The notes beneath the pieces were generated by a model, which saw only the letters and a list, made by a program, of their open reading frames with translations, made no database searches and was not told the origin of the DNA. The position numbers and the translations under genes were made by a program. 64,000 bases of DNA from an uncultured Poribacteria bacterium (GTDB taxonomy: Bacteria > Poribacteria > WGA-4E > WGA-3G), in NCBI GenBank assembly GCA_951828385.1, contig OX639973.1, positions 5,075,200 to 5,139,199 on the forward strand, given 5' to 3'. Positions 36,261 through 44,375 of the stretch are shown here, piece by piece; the stretch's first letter is position 1, and every line of letters starts with the position of its first letter.

Positions 36261-36395
36261 TTAATCTGAAAAACGTAGGTCTTCTTCTGCAATCCGGATA
36301 TTGAAGGCAGCACGGTGTACTTGCACAATTACCTTTCTCCATGGCCATGTAAGTTTATCTTCTCGGAACGATTGAGGGATAAGTGCCTCGCTCAT
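36261..36395 (-). CDS. small ORF (44 codons) overlapping the preceding LamG gene by ATGA
   Basis: The ATG (36395-36393) shares four bases with the stop of the 36392-38026 gene (ATGA), the usual layout for translational coupling. The peptide begins MSEALIPQSFREDKLTWPWR and ends AEEDLRFSD; it is basic in the middle and acidic at the end. No equivalent follows the paralogous gene at 38197. I know no relative. It may be a real small protein or a chance frame. Confidence 0.4.
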   Translation of the reverse strand: MSEALIPQSFREDKLTWPWRKVIVQVHRAAFNIRIAEEDLRFSD

Positions 36396-38026
36396 TTGTT
36401 GTTCTCCGCTGGGACTTCAAAATTTTCTTGGGTTCGACTATCAACCACTGTTGCTCCGGGGGGCGGTTCAATGGAGAACCGGGATTCAGGGATCGGTTCG
36501 TTAATCCGAATGTTTGTGAATTGGATCGTTGTGGTCCTGATCTCGGTTTTCGTGCCGGTCTTCATATCGCTTATAGTATCAACCCACTTGGCGGATTCCG
36601 GGAACCAGAGATCTGGTGCGACCTCTTTGAACTTGAAATCCTTTGTCATTGAAAGCATTAAATCAGAAACTATGAAGCGTTCGGGTCGGTAACTTTTCTG
36701 CGGGTTCAACCACAATTCCATGGTGCCACCTAAAAACTTCGCTTTGATATGATAGACATCACTGTCGTTAAAACGCACTTCTTTAATGCTTTCAACGTCA
36801 AGCCCATCAATGCTCATCATGAGGGATCGATCCCTACCACCGAGATTCCAGCCCCAGAAGCGTGGATCATTAAATGTGTCATCAACGATTTCGCTTCTGC
36901 GACTCAGTATAATACCGTTAAATGTTTCCCAGAGTCTCTCAAAGGTTTCGCCATCATAAGCGTATTGCTCTGTCCCTTTAAGTTCAATGTTCCTGTCAGT
37001 CTCGTACTGAATAGCATCTTCTGTCACAACGCATCTCATCTTGCGTCCCGAAAACTCGAAAGTCCCTTTCCAAGTACCACTTGGAAAACGTCCCAGTCCA
37101 GGGAGTCCATCAAATGCAACACTAATAGTCTCCCGAAAAAAGTCAACGCGTCCGGTTTTAAGAAGGCTATCGTAATAGGTAATCCCTTCGCGGATGAGTT
37201 GCAGCAGCTCTTGTTCGCTTTTTGGCAGCACGGGCGAGGCTGTCGCTTTTTCATTTTCAGCAAGCACCTCAGGAGCTATCTCACTTCGGATTAAGGGAAT
37301 CTCGGAATCTGAACTATCTTCATAGCGTTGATCCGACTCGTCATCGAAATGATAGAGTCCTATGGTGTCGGTATCTGCGGTGAACGCTTGTGTCGGTACG
37401 TCGTAGTTGCCTTTATACCGGACGACGCTGCTGATTCTCAGTTCATCAATATAGACACCTGAAGCGAAACGCATTTTGTCCCGTATTGGCATTTTCGTCA
37501 AAGTTGGGATGCCCCCAAGCACAAGACGATTCTCATTTGGAATTGGCAGTTCGCTCCCATCAGGTCCTCCTCTAATTAGACCGTCGCTGCCGATGGCGGC
37601 ACCTTGGTCGATCGTCGCCACGTAATGTATCCACTGACGAATCGGTAGATGTTCTGTTTCCGTCAGATGTGAAGGTTTTTCGGTACCATTGGAAAAGACA
37701 CCGATCCGAGTATCCATAATATTATCTCTATTTTCGTCCGTAGGTACCCCAACCATAAAGCAGCCGAATCGGTCCGTTTGACCAACGAGTGAGAAGGTGA
37801 CTTGCTTGGGTAACGTTTCGTCTACGTAGATCCACGCTTCAATGGTGAGTTCACCGGTCAGTTCGGGAAACCAAGGCGCATCCGTTTGGACTTGCCCCAG
37901 TTTAGGATTCAGTTCAAGCCAACCACCACCCGCAGGAGAGGGTTCGTGAGGTATTGCGAATAGTATAATTGGAGTCATTAAAATGCCAATGAGAATTATT
38001 AGAAATGTACCTCTGAGATATTGCAT
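36392..38026 (-). CDS. secreted LamG plus LolA/RseB-like protein, copy 1
   Basis: After a signal peptide (MQYLRGTFLIILIGILMTPI, cleavage after LFA) a LamG-like domain spans about residues 35-250 (GELTIEAWIYVDETLPKQV, RQWIHYVATIDQGAAIGSDG, GVYIDELRISSVVRYKGNYD). A second part from about 275 to 525 starts LIREGITYYDSLLKTGRVDF and contains YAYDGETFERLWE and MELWLNPQKSYRPERFIVSD. This is the look of outer-membrane lipoprotein-sorting or RseB-like antiparallel sheets, which bind lipids or lipoproteins in the periplasm. AAGGAG precedes the ATG. It follows a near-identical paralogue and belongs to the leftward cluster headed by the membrane-tethered sigma factor. Confidence 0.8.
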   Translation of the reverse strand: MQYLRGTFLIILIGILMTPIILFAIPHEPSPAGGGWLELNPKLGQVQTDAPWFPELTGELTIEAWIYVDETLPKQVTFSLVGQTDRFGCFMVGVPTDENRDNIMDTRIGVFSNGTEKPSHLTETEHLPIRQWIHYVATIDQGAAIGSDGLIRGGPDGSELPIPNENRLVLGGIPTLTKMPIRDKMRFASGVYIDELRISSVVRYKGNYDVPTQAFTADTDTIGLYHFDDESDQRYEDSSDSEIPLIRSEIAPEVLAENEKATASPVLPKSEQELLQLIREGITYYDSLLKTGRVDFFRETISVAFDGLPGLGRFPSGTWKGTFEFSGRKMRCVVTEDAIQYETDRNIELKGTEQYAYDGETFERLWETFNGIILSRRSEIVDDTFNDPRFWGWNLGGRDRSLMMSIDGLDVESIKEVRFNDSDVYHIKAKFLGGTMELWLNPQKSYRPERFIVSDLMLSMTKDFKFKEVAPDLWFPESAKWVDTISDMKTGTKTEIRTTTIQFTNIRINEPIPESRFSIEPPPGATVVDSRTQENFEVPAENNK

Positions 38027-38196: not shown

Positions 38197-39834
38197 TCAT
38201 TTACTGTTCTCCTGCGGGACTTCAAAACTTTCTCGGGTCCGCATGTCATACCCTCTCGCCCCAGGAGGTGGTTCAATAGAAAATCGGGATTCAGGAATAG
38301 GTTCGTTAACCTGAATGTTTGTGAATTGGATCGTTGTGGTCGTGATGTCGGTTTTCGTGCCGGTCTTCATATCGGTTACAGTCGTAACCCACTTAGCAGA
38401 TTCCGGGAACCAGAGATCGGGTGCAACCTCTTTGAACTTGAAATCCCTTGTCATTAAGAACATAGGGTTAGAGACTACATAGCGTTCAGGCCGGTAGCTT
38501 TTCTTTGGATTTAGCCACAATTCTATTGCGACACCGAACATATTCCCTTTAACGTGATACACATCACTATCGTTGAAACGTACCTCTTTAATACTTTCGA
38601 TATCAAGTCCATCAATAAGCATTGTGAGAGAATCTTTCCCACCACTAAGATCCCATCCCCAGGAGCGTGGATCATTGGATGGGTCATCGACGATTTCGCT
38701 TCTGCGACTCAGCATAATACCGTTAAATGTTTCCCGGAGCGTCTCAAAGGTTTCGCCATCATAAGCGTATTGCTCTGTTCCCTTAATTGGAATGTTTCGA
38801 TCAGGTTCGTACTGAATAGCATCTCGTGTCACAAGGCATCTCATTTTGCGTCCCGAAAACTCGAAAGTTCCCTTCCAGGTACCACTGGGGGCGCGTCCCA
38901 TAGGGTTCCCAGCAGACGCAACACTAATAGTTTCCCGAAGAAAGTCAACGCGTCCGCTTTCAAGCAGGCTATCGTAGTAAGCAATCCCTTCGCGGATAAG
39001 CCGAAGCGACTCTGCTTCACTTTTTGGCAGCACAGGCGAGGTTGTCGCCGCCTCAATCTTCGCAAGAGTCTCAGGATCTATCTCACTGCGGATTAAGGGA
39101 ATCTGGGAATTTGAACTATCTTCATAACGTTGTTTTGACCCTTCATCAAAATGGTAGAGTCCTATGGTATCAGTATCTGTGTTGAACGCGTTTGTGGGTA
39201 CATCGTAATTGCCTTTATAACGGACGACGCTGCTGATTCTTAGTTCGTCAATATAGACTCCCGAAGCAAAACGCATTTTGTCCCCCAGAGGTGCTGGCAG
39301 GTTCGTCAAAATTGGCATACCGCCAACCACAAGACGATTCTCATTTGGCACTGGCAGTTCGCTCCCATCAGGTCCTCCTCTAATTAGACCGTCGCTGCCA
39401 ATAGCAGCACCGCGGTCGATCGTCGCTACATAATGCACCCACTGACGAATCGGCAGACTTTCCATTTTCGTCACCATTGAAGGTTCTTTAGTCCCATTGG
39501 AAAGGATACCGAGCCGAGTATCCATCACATTATCTCTATCTTCGTCCACAGGCATTCCAGTCATAAAACAGCTAAATCGGTCCGTTTGACCGACGAGGGA
39601 AAATCGGACTTGCTTGGGCAATGTCTCGTCTACATAGATCCACGCTTCAATCGTAAGCGTCCCAGTGAGTTCGGGAAACCAAGGCGCATCCGTTTGGACC
39701 TGCCCGAGTTTAGGATTCAGTTCGAGCCAGTTACCGCCAGCCGGAGACGGTTCGTGCGGTGCTGCAAACAATAGAGTCGGTGTCAGTAAAAAGACAATTA
39801 GGATTGTTAGAAATGTCTCTCTGAGGTATTTCAT
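38197..39834 (-). CDS. secreted LamG plus LolA/RseB-like protein, copy 2
   Basis: This 545-residue paralogue aligns end to end with the downstream copy, with the same signal peptide plan (MKYLRETFLTILIVFLLTPT), the LamG region and the C-terminal LolA/RseB-like region (YAYDGETFETLRETFNGIML, IELWLNPKKSYRPERYVVSN). The ribosome site is GGAGACTATCCG. The two copies differ by a few percent to a few tens of percent in different segments and seem to result from tandem duplication. Function unknown; RseB-like domains sense envelope stress and relay it to sigma factors, which makes the nearby sigma gene of interest. Confidence 0.8.
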   Translation of the reverse strand: MKYLRETFLTILIVFLLTPTLLFAAPHEPSPAGGNWLELNPKLGQVQTDAPWFPELTGTLTIEAWIYVDETLPKQVRFSLVGQTDRFSCFMTGMPVDEDRDNVMDTRLGILSNGTKEPSMVTKMESLPIRQWVHYVATIDRGAAIGSDGLIRGGPDGSELPVPNENRLVVGGMPILTNLPAPLGDKMRFASGVYIDELRISSVVRYKGNYDVPTNAFNTDTDTIGLYHFDEGSKQRYEDSSNSQIPLIRSEIDPETLAKIEAATTSPVLPKSEAESLRLIREGIAYYDSLLESGRVDFLRETISVASAGNPMGRAPSGTWKGTFEFSGRKMRCLVTRDAIQYEPDRNIPIKGTEQYAYDGETFETLRETFNGIMLSRRSEIVDDPSNDPRSWGWDLSGGKDSLTMLIDGLDIESIKEVRFNDSDVYHVKGNMFGVAIELWLNPKKSYRPERYVVSNPMFLMTRDFKFKEVAPDLWFPESAKWVTTVTDMKTGTKTDITTTTIQFTNIQVNEPIPESRFSIEPPPGARGYDMRTRESFEVPQENSK

Positions 39835-39881: not shown

Positions 39882-41345
39882 CTACTTTGCGACGAAAGCA
39901 AAAATCGGAATCTTGATAAGACGCATCTTTGAGTGGTTCGTCCGAAGGAGAACTTCGCCTTTCAGAACACCTGTTGCTAAAACTGATGGTAACGTTAACG
40001 TCAATTGATAGTTGTTGCTGTTCTCTTGTCTTTTGACTGTGATTGTTCCAATATCAGTTTCGGCTTTTTCAATCTGGAACTCAGTGCTCGTATGATTGCT
40101 AAGCACTAACACTTTCGTATTTTCCGCGCCGGAATTAACTTGTCCGAAGAAAAAACGTTCGGGCGCGAGCGTATAGACTTGACTTCCGTCCCCAGATATC
40201 GGTAACTTGATGGTCCTTATTTCGCCTTTGTGGTCAATGTATTCAACTATGAGTTTCTCATTAAACCGTCCTTTGGGCATCTGATCTGTTGCAAAATTCA
40301 GTTCAATGTCGGCGGCGCGCCACGGATAAACGACGTTATCGCTACGAAGCACAGGCTGAATCCACGCCTGTGAACTTTTAATATTCTGAATCATCAGGGC
40401 AGCCTCACGCGGGTTTTTTAGCGCAACAGTTTTCTGGGATTGTAATGTGTTAGTACTTTCCACATAGACCCTCTCAGGGACAAAGACGACGGGAAATTCC
40501 CGAGCGCGCCCGAAAGAGATAAAAGCGGATGGACGTTGCGGTGTATCCGTTTGAATATGGACAGTCATAAAAGAAGTGCTATAGGCTGCAACTGCAGTCG
40601 AACCGATCCCTAAAACAGCATCTTTCCCGGCAGGAATGACACCTGTCTTAGGCTTGGCGATAGCTATATGTCACGTATTGCCTGCGACAGAGACGATTTG
40701 TATCGGCGCATCACTCCGATTTTTAAGGCGGACAGGAAATTGGTATCCCACTAAGTCCTGATCTCCGAGGCCGCGCTGCAGTGTGATTAAGGCATCTAAA
40801 TCCAGCAACGTGGGTGAGACATTTAAAACCGGTTGCCTTTGCTGACGTTGGCTTTCCGAGAGGGCGAGCACACGTCCCGTCCAGAGATCCAAAAAGCGAT
40901 CACGAGACACAACAGTCGCCGCCTGATATAGAAACCTGCTGGGTGTATCAAAGAAGCGCACCCACTTTTTATTCGTGTATTCAACAACGATGAAATGGCC
41001 AGCGGTAAAGTCGGCATTTGCAGGGTTTACGTCCTCAAATGTGGTCCTGAGATGAGCAATGACCGGCGTTTTAAACTTTCGGAGCTCTTCATAAGTGAGA
41101 TCGAGCTCTCGCAATTCGAGTCCGATTTCCTTGGCAGCGGCAATGAGATGCGCAAAATCGGCGACACGATGCCCCTCCGTTTTCTCAATAAGCCTGTTTT
41201 CGATGCGCGCCAGCGATACTTGAATACCTAAAATGGTAGCGAGGTGGTAAAGACTGGTAACATCAGAAGTCTGTTTGTCTTCTGCCGCGAAAGCGAGCGG
41301 GAGAACAAGTAGGACGATAAGAAGGGAGATGACTAAGACTTTCAT
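39882..41345 (-). CDS. secreted C39-like/DUF1573 protein with an in-frame UGA (selenocysteine or nonsense)
   Basis: One frame of 487 codons runs from the ATG at 41345 (AAAGGAGAACT upstream) to a stop at 39882 but has a TGA at 40673-40671 (codon 225). Before it: a signal peptide (MKVLVISLLIVLLVLPLAFA) and a C39-peptidase-like domain (SLYHLATILGIQVSL, TAGHFIVVEY with the His, VRFFDTP with the Asp) whose catalytic Cys region has no Cys. Then FPVRLKNRSDAPIQIVSVAG opens a DUF1573-like beta domain, and the TGA falls about where that family has the second Cys of its SCGCT motif. The frame continues HIAIAKPKTGVIPAGKDAVL without a break. The downstream part has no ribosome site of its own. Either UGA is read as selenocysteine or the gene carries a nonsense mutation. 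The 999-residue sigma gene ends 30 bases upstream. Confidence 0.65.
40671..40673 (-). other. in-frame UGA codon, candidate selenocysteine site
   Basis: The codon is followed at +26 by CAGG-TGTCATT-CCTG, a 4-base stem with a 7-base loop that has G in its second position and starts about 30 bases after the UGA. This fits the spacing and loop rule of bacterial SECIS elements, though the stem is short. No sel genes are in the window. Confidence 0.4.
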
Positions 41346-41375: not shown

Positions 41376-44375
41376 TTATTTCATCACGCCTACCCACGCT
41401 TCTTCTTCAAGCGAGATGTGAAATAGACCGCGCTGTTCGGTAGCAATATAAAGTCTGTCGTTGCTAACGATGAGAGATATAACTTTACCCGGGACTTCTG
41501 GAGAAATCTGTTGCCATCCGCCTTCTAAACGATATACACCCGTATCCCCGGCACCGTAAACTGTGGTGCCATTCACAGCGAATCTATCTATGACGATAGG
41601 TGTACCGGTTTTATCTGTTATTAAGTGCCAGTGTTCTCCGGTCTCTGAGGATAAAACGCCTTTATCCGTTGCGACGTAAACCGTTGCGTCTACAAAGACG
41701 ATCTCGTTGAAATGTGTAAAGCGAAGCGGAAGACTTGATGTAACGTCTCTCCAACTGTCTCCACCATCCAGCGATTGAAAGAGTGTACCATCGCGCTTAC
41801 CGACGTAAACAGTTTCTGCTGAAACCGCTAACTTGAACCCCTTATCCAATTCGCTATCAGGTTGTTCGCTGGCATCTATCAGTCCTGTGTTTCGCCATTC
41901 CTGCCTACCGGGTTCCCAACTGAAAAGTCTTCGCCTGCATTCTATGTAGAAGGTTTCGTCACTGACAGCAAACCCGCCAGCGCCCCAATGTTTTTTCATA
42001 AAGTACAATGTAACAGGTACGCTATCGCTTTCTTCATGACCATCAGACGAGTGAACCTGTTCTACCTCTTCGACGCTGGTCCACAACTCAATGGGTAAGG
42101 CTTCTTTTGTCCATAGATTGAAAGATTGCGCTCGCTCTGCAAAAGAGGGGACCCTATGAATCGGGGCGAACGCATCACTACTTATAGGTAAATGAAAAAC
42201 GCGTAGGTCATCTTCCGCCGGTACAATGCCATAAAGCGTGTTGTCTGAGACGACTAATCTTGAATCAAGCGAGAAATCGCCTTGGGACTGTCCTTTTTTT
42301 ACTGACCTAAGCGTAACGCCGCCTGCATTAACCGGAACGTTTTCCCACGACGTACCCCCGTCGGTCGATTGGAAAACGTCGCTGCCGGTATGCATGTAGA
42401 GCCTGTCATTGAACGCCACTAAATCCTGTATTCTGGTCCCTGCTATCCCGCTCATAAAGGGTTGCCACGATTCACCACCATCGGTTGTCCGATGGACACC
42501 GGAGGTGCCAACGTTGTAAAATGTATGCTCATCTATCGCTACAGTTGAAAAGCTGCCCAACGTAAATAAATTTCTATCGAATCCGAGGTCTGTCCAAGTT
42601 TGCCCGCCGTCCGTTGAGCGTAATTCAGCAACACCCAATAGTAAGAGCGTCTCACCGGCAACCACAAGTTTTATACCCGTTGGTGTCCTCACAAATGGAG
42701 ACTTATTTTTCGGTGTTATCTCAATCCACGACGCTCCCAAATCAGCTGAGTGGAAAATACTACTTGAACTTGCATTGTGGCCGCGTATTATTTGCCCGTT
42801 ATCCTTAAGCCTTGATTCAAGCAATCCCAAAGTAAAAAGAGTGTGACCTGTTACGACATAGAGATTGTTTTCAGAGGCCACTAACGAATGAATAACTTCG
42901 GAGGTAGCCACAGGCAATTGATCCCAAACATCTGAATTGAGGCGGTAAAGTCCCATGTTTGTACCGGCAAATATCGTGTTTCCGATCGCAGCCACTGCAG
43001 AAACGCTTTTACCCGTCAATCCATCGTTAAGGAGGGTCCACTGGGCACCAGCATCGGTAGATCGGAAAACACCTTTATCTTCAAGGGTAAGATACATTAC
43101 AGGATGTGCTTGTGCCGCATCCGTGACGATAAATCCAATAGCGCGTCCCTTTGGTCGGCGGCAAAATGCGCGCCATGTCTCACCCGCATCGGTTGAAGCG
43201 GACACTTCATTCGCAGAGACGATATAGAGCGTGTCTTCATACACTGCCATAGGCATTTGTGACGCATCAATTGGGACACTGGTATCAATGAGTGTCCACA
43301 CAGTTTCATCTGCTGCCAATCTATAGATACCTGAGTGTGTAACAGCATAAAGCGTCTTTTCAGATGTAGCAAAGATGTTAAGGGCGGTGCCACCCTGAGG
43401 GCCATCTGTCTGGGTCCACTCTGAAGTAGAAAACTTAGGGGAAATTTCCAGCGTATCGGTCGGTGAGGTTGTTTCAGAAACTTGTGAACCGTTCCCATTG
43501 TCTTTACTCGGTGTAAAAGCACGACCCGCCTGATTTCGGACAGCGGGTTTAGCGTCACTATCAAGCGTAATAGGGGCATCAACGATTTCAATCGTCGGTT
43601 CAGATTGTGCTTCAAAACTATAGGGCTGCTGAAAACGGGCGAGGTATTGATTGCTAACACCGAGCAATAACATAACCAAAACCGCAGCTGCACCAAAAGC
43701 CGCCCACGGTAGCAGCGGATTCCCAACCGAAGTGGATGTCTGTTTTATGTTGGCAACTTGTCGCATGATGCTCTCGGTTAGGTTGGCAGGTAATTGAACA
43801 CTTCCAAGCGTTTTGCTAATTAAAAGCTCTTCTTCATTTCGTAAACGTTCTCGCGCTCGGCGAATGCGACTTTTAATTGTGTTTACGGATACCCCTAAGA
43901 ACTTAGCAATTTCCTTCGCTGTCATTTCACCGAGATAGTAGAGGGTCACAACTGTACGTTCACTCTCCGGCAATTTCTGAAGAAGTTTTTGGACGATTTC
44001 GCTGTGGCGATCAGAGGCTTTTACCTCGCATTGTTCTGATAGATAATGCGTATAAGCAGATTTCTCTATTTCTTCCATAGGTGTGTCTTCCAAGGATTGC
44101 ATCACTGGACTGTTTTTTTGGCTCCAATTAATGCAAAGCCGATTTGCGATGACATAAAGCCATCCAGCAAATAGATTGGGATTTTTCAGCGTTGCGAGGC
44201 TTTTGTAGACTCGGAGAAAGGTGTCCTGCGTAATTTCTTCAGCAATATGAAAATCGCCAATCTTCCGCCACACAAGCGCATGGACGTTCTTTTGGTATTT
44301 CTGGACTAAAATACTGAATGCCGCGTCATCGCCTGATAAAATTCTGCGAATCAGTTGAACATCGCTTTCTACCAT
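41376..44375 (-). CDS. membrane-tethered ECF sigma factor with an extracytoplasmic Asp-box propeller
   Basis: A single 999-codon gene encodes three parts. Residues 1-185 are an ECF sigma factor: region 2 with IAEEITQDTFLRVYKSLATL and FAGWLYVIANRLCINW, region 4 with LPESERTVVTLYYLGEMTAK and LGVSVNTIKSRIRRARERL. Residues 221-240 (LLPWAAFGAAAVLVMLLLGV) are one membrane helix. After a Ser/Thr-rich linker, about 320-999 are BNR/Ycf48-like repeats with many Asp-boxes: STDAGETW, STDAGAQW, SADLGASW, STDGGQTW, TTDGGESW, STDGGTSW, SLDGGDSW. With the sigma part inside, the propeller lies outside, so one protein could sense outside and transcribe inside, perhaps after proteolytic release. GGAGA precedes the ATG. 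It heads the cluster of secreted proteins down to 36261. Confidence 0.92.
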   Translation of the reverse strand: MVESDVQLIRRILSGDDAAFSILVQKYQKNVHALVWRKIGDFHIAEEITQDTFLRVYKSLATLKNPNLFAGWLYVIANRLCINWSQKNSPVMQSLEDTPMEEIEKSAYTHYLSEQCEVKASDRHSEIVQKLLQKLPESERTVVTLYYLGEMTAKEIAKFLGVSVNTIKSRIRRARERLRNEEELLISKTLGSVQLPANLTESIMRQVANIKQTSTSVGNPLLPWAAFGAAAVLVMLLLGVSNQYLARFQQPYSFEAQSEPTIEIVDAPITLDSDAKPAVRNQAGRAFTPSKDNGNGSQVSETTSPTDTLEISPKFSTSEWTQTDGPQGGTALNIFATSEKTLYAVTHSGIYRLAADETVWTLIDTSVPIDASQMPMAVYEDTLYIVSANEVSASTDAGETWRAFCRRPKGRAIGFIVTDAAQAHPVMYLTLEDKGVFRSTDAGAQWTLLNDGLTGKSVSAVAAIGNTIFAGTNMGLYRLNSDVWDQLPVATSEVIHSLVASENNLYVVTGHTLFTLGLLESRLKDNGQIIRGHNASSSSIFHSADLGASWIEITPKNKSPFVRTPTGIKLVVAGETLLLLGVAELRSTDGGQTWTDLGFDRNLFTLGSFSTVAIDEHTFYNVGTSGVHRTTDGGESWQPFMSGIAGTRIQDLVAFNDRLYMHTGSDVFQSTDGGTSWENVPVNAGGVTLRSVKKGQSQGDFSLDSRLVVSDNTLYGIVPAEDDLRVFHLPISSDAFAPIHRVPSFAERAQSFNLWTKEALPIELWTSVEEVEQVHSSDGHEESDSVPVTLYFMKKHWGAGGFAVSDETFYIECRRRLFSWEPGRQEWRNTGLIDASEQPDSELDKGFKLAVSAETVYVGKRDGTLFQSLDGGDSWRDVTSSLPLRFTHFNEIVFVDATVYVATDKGVLSSETGEHWHLITDKTGTPIVIDRFAVNGTTVYGAGDTGVYRLEGGWQQISPEVPGKVISLIVSNDRLYIATEQRGLFHISLEEEAWVGVMK

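Follow-up and report, generated by a model that had tools for sequence, protein, structure and literature searches.

A gene on the minus strand of an uncultured Poribacteria genome (a single contig of 6.66 Mb) raises the question of whether it has been broken by an internal stop codon or is read through that codon to give an intact protein. It lies within the window, the stretch of 64,000 nucleotides that was analysed, where it occupies 39882..41345 (-) as one frame of 487 codons that begins at 41345 and ends with a TAG stop at 39884-39882. The sole TGA inside the frame is found at 40673-40671, and the coordinates given in a preliminary description of this DNA prove to be exact. From the analyses presented here, the apparently broken gene is almost certainly intact and the "stop" is most likely a codon for selenocysteine (Sec).

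The predicted product begins with a signal-peptide-like N-terminus followed by a C39-peptidase-like domain and three Ig-like domains of the DUF1573/HYDIN type. The C39-like domain (residues 25-165; 40851..41273 (-)) is recognized by PF03412 at 37.2 bits and by alignment with Cys-bearing homologues. Its nucleophile Cys is replaced by Ser (T-S-D-V-T-S-L-Y), with His 117 and Asp 133 retained. The in-frame UGA is codon 225 (40671..40673 (-); motif N-T-U-H) and falls in the first DUF1573-type domain, which spans approximately residues 172-280 (40506..40830 (-)). In the window protein this domain is not scored by the Pfam profile PF07610, which matches the third Ig-like domain instead at 28.4 bits against a gathering cut-off of 26.1. 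A paralogue with Cys in the equivalent loop (L047) reaches 60.7 bits as a whole protein, and there the domain matching the Sec-bearing one is scored. An AlphaFold2 model, built from 17 sequences with the UGA read as Cys and having a mean pLDDT of 68, shows by our own reading an alpha/beta domain of the C39 type and then three regions with a beta-sandwich fold. In the first of these regions, strands 215-222 and 227-230 are joined by the loop that contains residue 225. When the predicted structure was compared with the PDB by Foldseek, the matches were mostly Ig-repeat and similar beta-rich proteins of low TM-score, which are uninformative on function.

Conservation of the UGA codon

A search of whole genomes of the order (73 genomes) yielded 15 full-length orthologues including the window gene, leaving out of the count loci L048-L058, which are same-species duplicate records with the same identities. 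The other orthologues are 73-84% identical to the window protein and syntenic with it, and all 15 belong to one Poribacteria genus. The codon is TGA in 14 of them and GGA, encoding Gly, in the remaining one (L022, genome G056). All 14 TGA orthologues share the codon context ACG-UGA, while the true terminal stop varies across the 15 (TAG in 11, TAA in 4). Since the tree of these species has a length of 3.29 substitutions per four-fold site, a neutral codon would rarely survive: about 9.9 changes are expected over the tree compared with the one observed, and the chance of all three bases remaining unchanged at a neutral codon is roughly 5e-5. Purifying selection is evident on both sides of the codon: dN/dS is 0.19 before the UGA and 0.16 after it, and the stretch that leads from it to the next Met has a value of 0.20.

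A nonsense mutation, a pseudogene or a sequencing error is one alternative account of the internal stop, and a decayed copy does exist. One separate orthologous copy in another species (L034, genome G043) has lost roughly codons 115-330 to an internal deletion and is frame-shifted. The full-length orthologues have no other breaks, however, and the TGA is shared by 14 separately assembled species under a dN/dS of 0.16-0.20. The cross-species comparison of the 14 TGA orthologues thus refutes this account, which we regard as vanishingly improbable.

A second possibility is a split gene, in which the UGA is a true stop and a second protein starts at the downstream ATG at 40568. An open reading frame of 228 residues from this ATG is indeed listed by the ORF finder. 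Against it, the Met is replaced by Arg, Gln or Ile in 4 of the 15 orthologues, the stretch between the UGA and that Met is itself constrained as protein, and the second half would be without a signal peptide. Given the low dN/dS on both sides and the variable Met, a split gene is highly improbable.

Selenocysteine machinery and the residue probably replaced

Decoding of the UGA as Sec would depend on a dedicated apparatus, and the genes that the preliminary description had pointed to (selA, selB, selC for tRNA-Sec, and selD) are all present in the source genome. selB scores 355 bits, above the cut-off, and adjoins the tRNA-Sec gene (76 bits). The SelD gene of this genome (L090; G000 C1:1330118-1331041) has an in-frame TGA of its own (CAGU), and some 17 nt beyond it the sequence may fold into a GC-rich stem-loop. 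Across the order, tRNA-Sec was detected in 65 of the 73 genomes, among them all 14 TGA carriers, and selA in 13 of these 14, the exception (G037) being an assembly that is 81% complete. The species with Gly at the codon retains both tRNA-Sec and selA. SelA and SelB are reported to be common in sponge symbionts (PMC5649159). Elsewhere UGA behaves as a normal stop; it terminates 3 of the 30 long ORFs of the window, and a genome-wide reassignment of the codon was rejected on these grounds.

Homologues outside the orthologue group indicate which residue the Sec may replace. In the same loop, paralogues that are about 50% identical carry CSC (L047) or CNC (L033). In a MAFFT alignment the U is placed on the first Cys of this CxC motif with one extra residue ahead of it, whereas tblastn places it on the middle residue, leaving the register uncertain by one residue. 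A further branch of proteins, in which a LolA-like region, a C39 domain and a DUF1573 domain are fused, favours the first Cys. Two species of this branch have T-U-A-C-T (L078 and L079; genus g4) and the others T-C-A-C-T or a similar motif, so that the first Cys is encoded as TGA in two proteins and as Cys in ten related ones. From these alignments the Sec of the window clade most likely stands in for the first CxC cysteine, give or take one residue, and not for the second as had initially been proposed. The clade would then most likely read U-H-T, having kept the Sec and lost the second Cys. U-H-T is found in most orthologues, U-H-I in the window protein, and U-N-T and U-H-S once each. Because Thr occupies the position of the second Cys in most orthologues and the Cys count is zero in all 15, the Sec would be the protein's sole redox-active group of the selenol or thiol type.

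The initial proposal of a selenoprotein is accordingly well supported: the UGA is conserved, the sequence is constrained as protein before and after it, the Sec machinery is present, and relatives exchange Cys and Sec at this site. The findings that the preliminary description had named as refutations were looked for, and the outcomes speak against the proposal in no case. Counted against it are the Gly, rather than Cys, of the odd species and the confinement of the TGA orthologues to one genus. On balance the gene very probably encodes a selenoprotein, predicted to be exported, in which UGA 225 is decoded as Sec by means of SelB, tRNA-Sec and a hairpin in the downstream mRNA.

RNA structure downstream of the UGA

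Bacterial SECIS elements, as described by Zhang and Gladyshev 2005, are reportedly hairpins with the loop 16-37 nt after the UGA and a G within the first two loop bases. Rules of this type were coded for a scan and are satisfied in 3 of the 15 orthologues, namely the window gene and two others. The preliminary description had drawn attention to a short hairpin, CAGG-TGTCATT-CCTG (40631..40645 (-)). It exists in the window gene and begins 26 nt downstream of the UGA as claimed, but its suggested role as the SECIS is not upheld: just 2 of the 15 orthologues, one of them the window gene, have a hairpin of this type there.

A longer, conserved hairpin of 17 pairs is the better candidate for a SECIS. 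It occupies 40609..40652 (-), with a stem that starts 18 nt past the UGA (18-61 nt downstream), and was assessed with synonymous-codon controls. Over 13 distinct sequences 95.9% of cells are paired, compared with 42-53% when the partner is slid, the structure having been derived from the same sequences that were used to score it. Among these 13 sequences there are no double compensatory changes, and covariation is no higher than in the shuffle control. The long hairpin does not satisfy the coded rules, and Rfam gives zero matches around the gene and its UGA at E up to 5. Of the segments tested along the gene, the one that begins six codons past the UGA folds with the lowest mean energy (-26.9); compared with synonymous shuffles in eight species, its mean z of -1.62 is also the lowest. 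In a second synonymous-shuffle test over codons +6 to +22 in 15 species, the ranks extend from 1/300 to 132/300, the hairpin of the Gly species being the weakest. Synonymous differences are low at codons +10 to +39 (0.15-0.22, compared with about 0.30 overall) and also at codons -10 to -1 (0.18). The folding and synonymous data are compatible with an RNA element, the shape of which they leave unproven.

That the hairpin falls outside the rules used for bacterial SECIS elements could be taken to suggest that selenium is not involved at all. The UGA might instead be a conserved stop subject to programmed readthrough by a near-cognate tRNA, so that a short C39-like protein would be made alongside a longer one. 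The ACG-UGA context kept in 14 of 14 orthologues and the non-Sec sense codon in the Gly species would suit such readthrough. Yet UGA is the only stop codon at the site, never UAA or UAG, homologues have Cys at the aligned residue, UGA appears again in a separate branch, and the machinery for Sec exists, with tRNA-Sec in every TGA genome. We consider selenium-free readthrough very improbable. Under the selenocysteine reading, ribosomes would decode UGA 225 with SelB, tRNA-Sec and the downstream mRNA hairpin, the long hairpin serving as the SECIS. The first of the Ig-like DUF1573-type domains would thereby carry Sec in an inter-strand loop, where Cys-containing homologues most likely have the first cysteine of CxC, and the protein is probably exported. 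More tentatively, and with the odds somewhat against the combination, Sec may be the only thiol- or selenol-type residue of an exported protein with no Cys and no resolving partner, inserted through a SECIS outside the standard bacterial model.

Genomic setting and relation to known selenoproteins

The gene is flanked upstream by an ECF sigma factor fused to a BNR/propeller-type domain (41376..44375 (-)), which is syntenic in most orthologue loci. This fusion is a single frame of 999 residues with a hydrophobic stretch between its two parts that looks like a membrane anchor. Downstream lie a syntenic gene that combines Laminin_G_3 with a weak DUF2092/LolA-like region (38197..39834 (-)) and, from the ORF list and synteny, its tandem paralogue (36392..38026 (-)). 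In most orthologue loci of sufficient length the order is ECF sigma-BNR, selenoprotein, one or more Laminin_G/LolA-like genes, and recJ; the upstream order departs from this in L054 and L057. A general scan for promoters and terminators found no more signals than in shuffled sequence. LolA-like regions also occur elsewhere in fusion with C39-DUF1573 or C39-like domains, which hints at a shared envelope function. The selenoprotein may act in the cell envelope as a lone selenol, in redox chemistry or in binding a soft metal, probably together with the neighbouring Laminin_G/LolA-like proteins and under the control of the adjacent ECF sigma factor. We regard this functional reading as less likely than not.

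If the selenocysteine reading is true, a conserved selenoprotein is added for sponge-associated Poribacteria, for which a search of the available papers found no report on selenoproteins. It also illustrates how an apparent stop can lead annotators to call a gene broken or split. A Sec that stands alone, without a Cys partner, would offer a clean case of what a selenol does beyond the CxC pair, the natural Gly variant provides a contrast to the Sec form, and the hairpin probes the reach of the bacterial SECIS rules.

DUF1573 selenoproteins with a UGC motif have already been listed (PMC9312934, PMC13188914). The window protein resembles them (PF07610) in that its predicted Sec belongs to a DUF1573-type domain and most likely takes the place of the first CxC cysteine. 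It differs in the U-H-T motif of its clade, where the second Cys is absent, in the C39-like domain in front, and in a Sec-bearing domain that Pfam does not score as DUF1573. A DUF1573-type domain is also covered by the NCBIfam profile NF041425 (OS_HP2 (seleno)protein), which L047 matches with 47 bits across the domain that carries CSC; the window protein is below the cut-off of 100 with 24.7 bits, confined to its last Ig-like domain. Closer in build are the LolA-like/C39/DUF1573 fusions of genus g4 in the same family (L078 and L079), which share the pairing of C39-like and DUF1573 domains, a UGA after Thr and the same loop, but keep the second Cys, have a Cys-bearing C39 domain and carry an extra N-terminal domain. 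What looks new is the domain architecture, the U-H-T motif in which the second Cys is missing, and the absence of Cys from the whole protein. Since DUF1573 selenoproteins and NF041425 are known, the finding is best seen as a divergent branch within an already known family of selenoproteins and not as a new kind.
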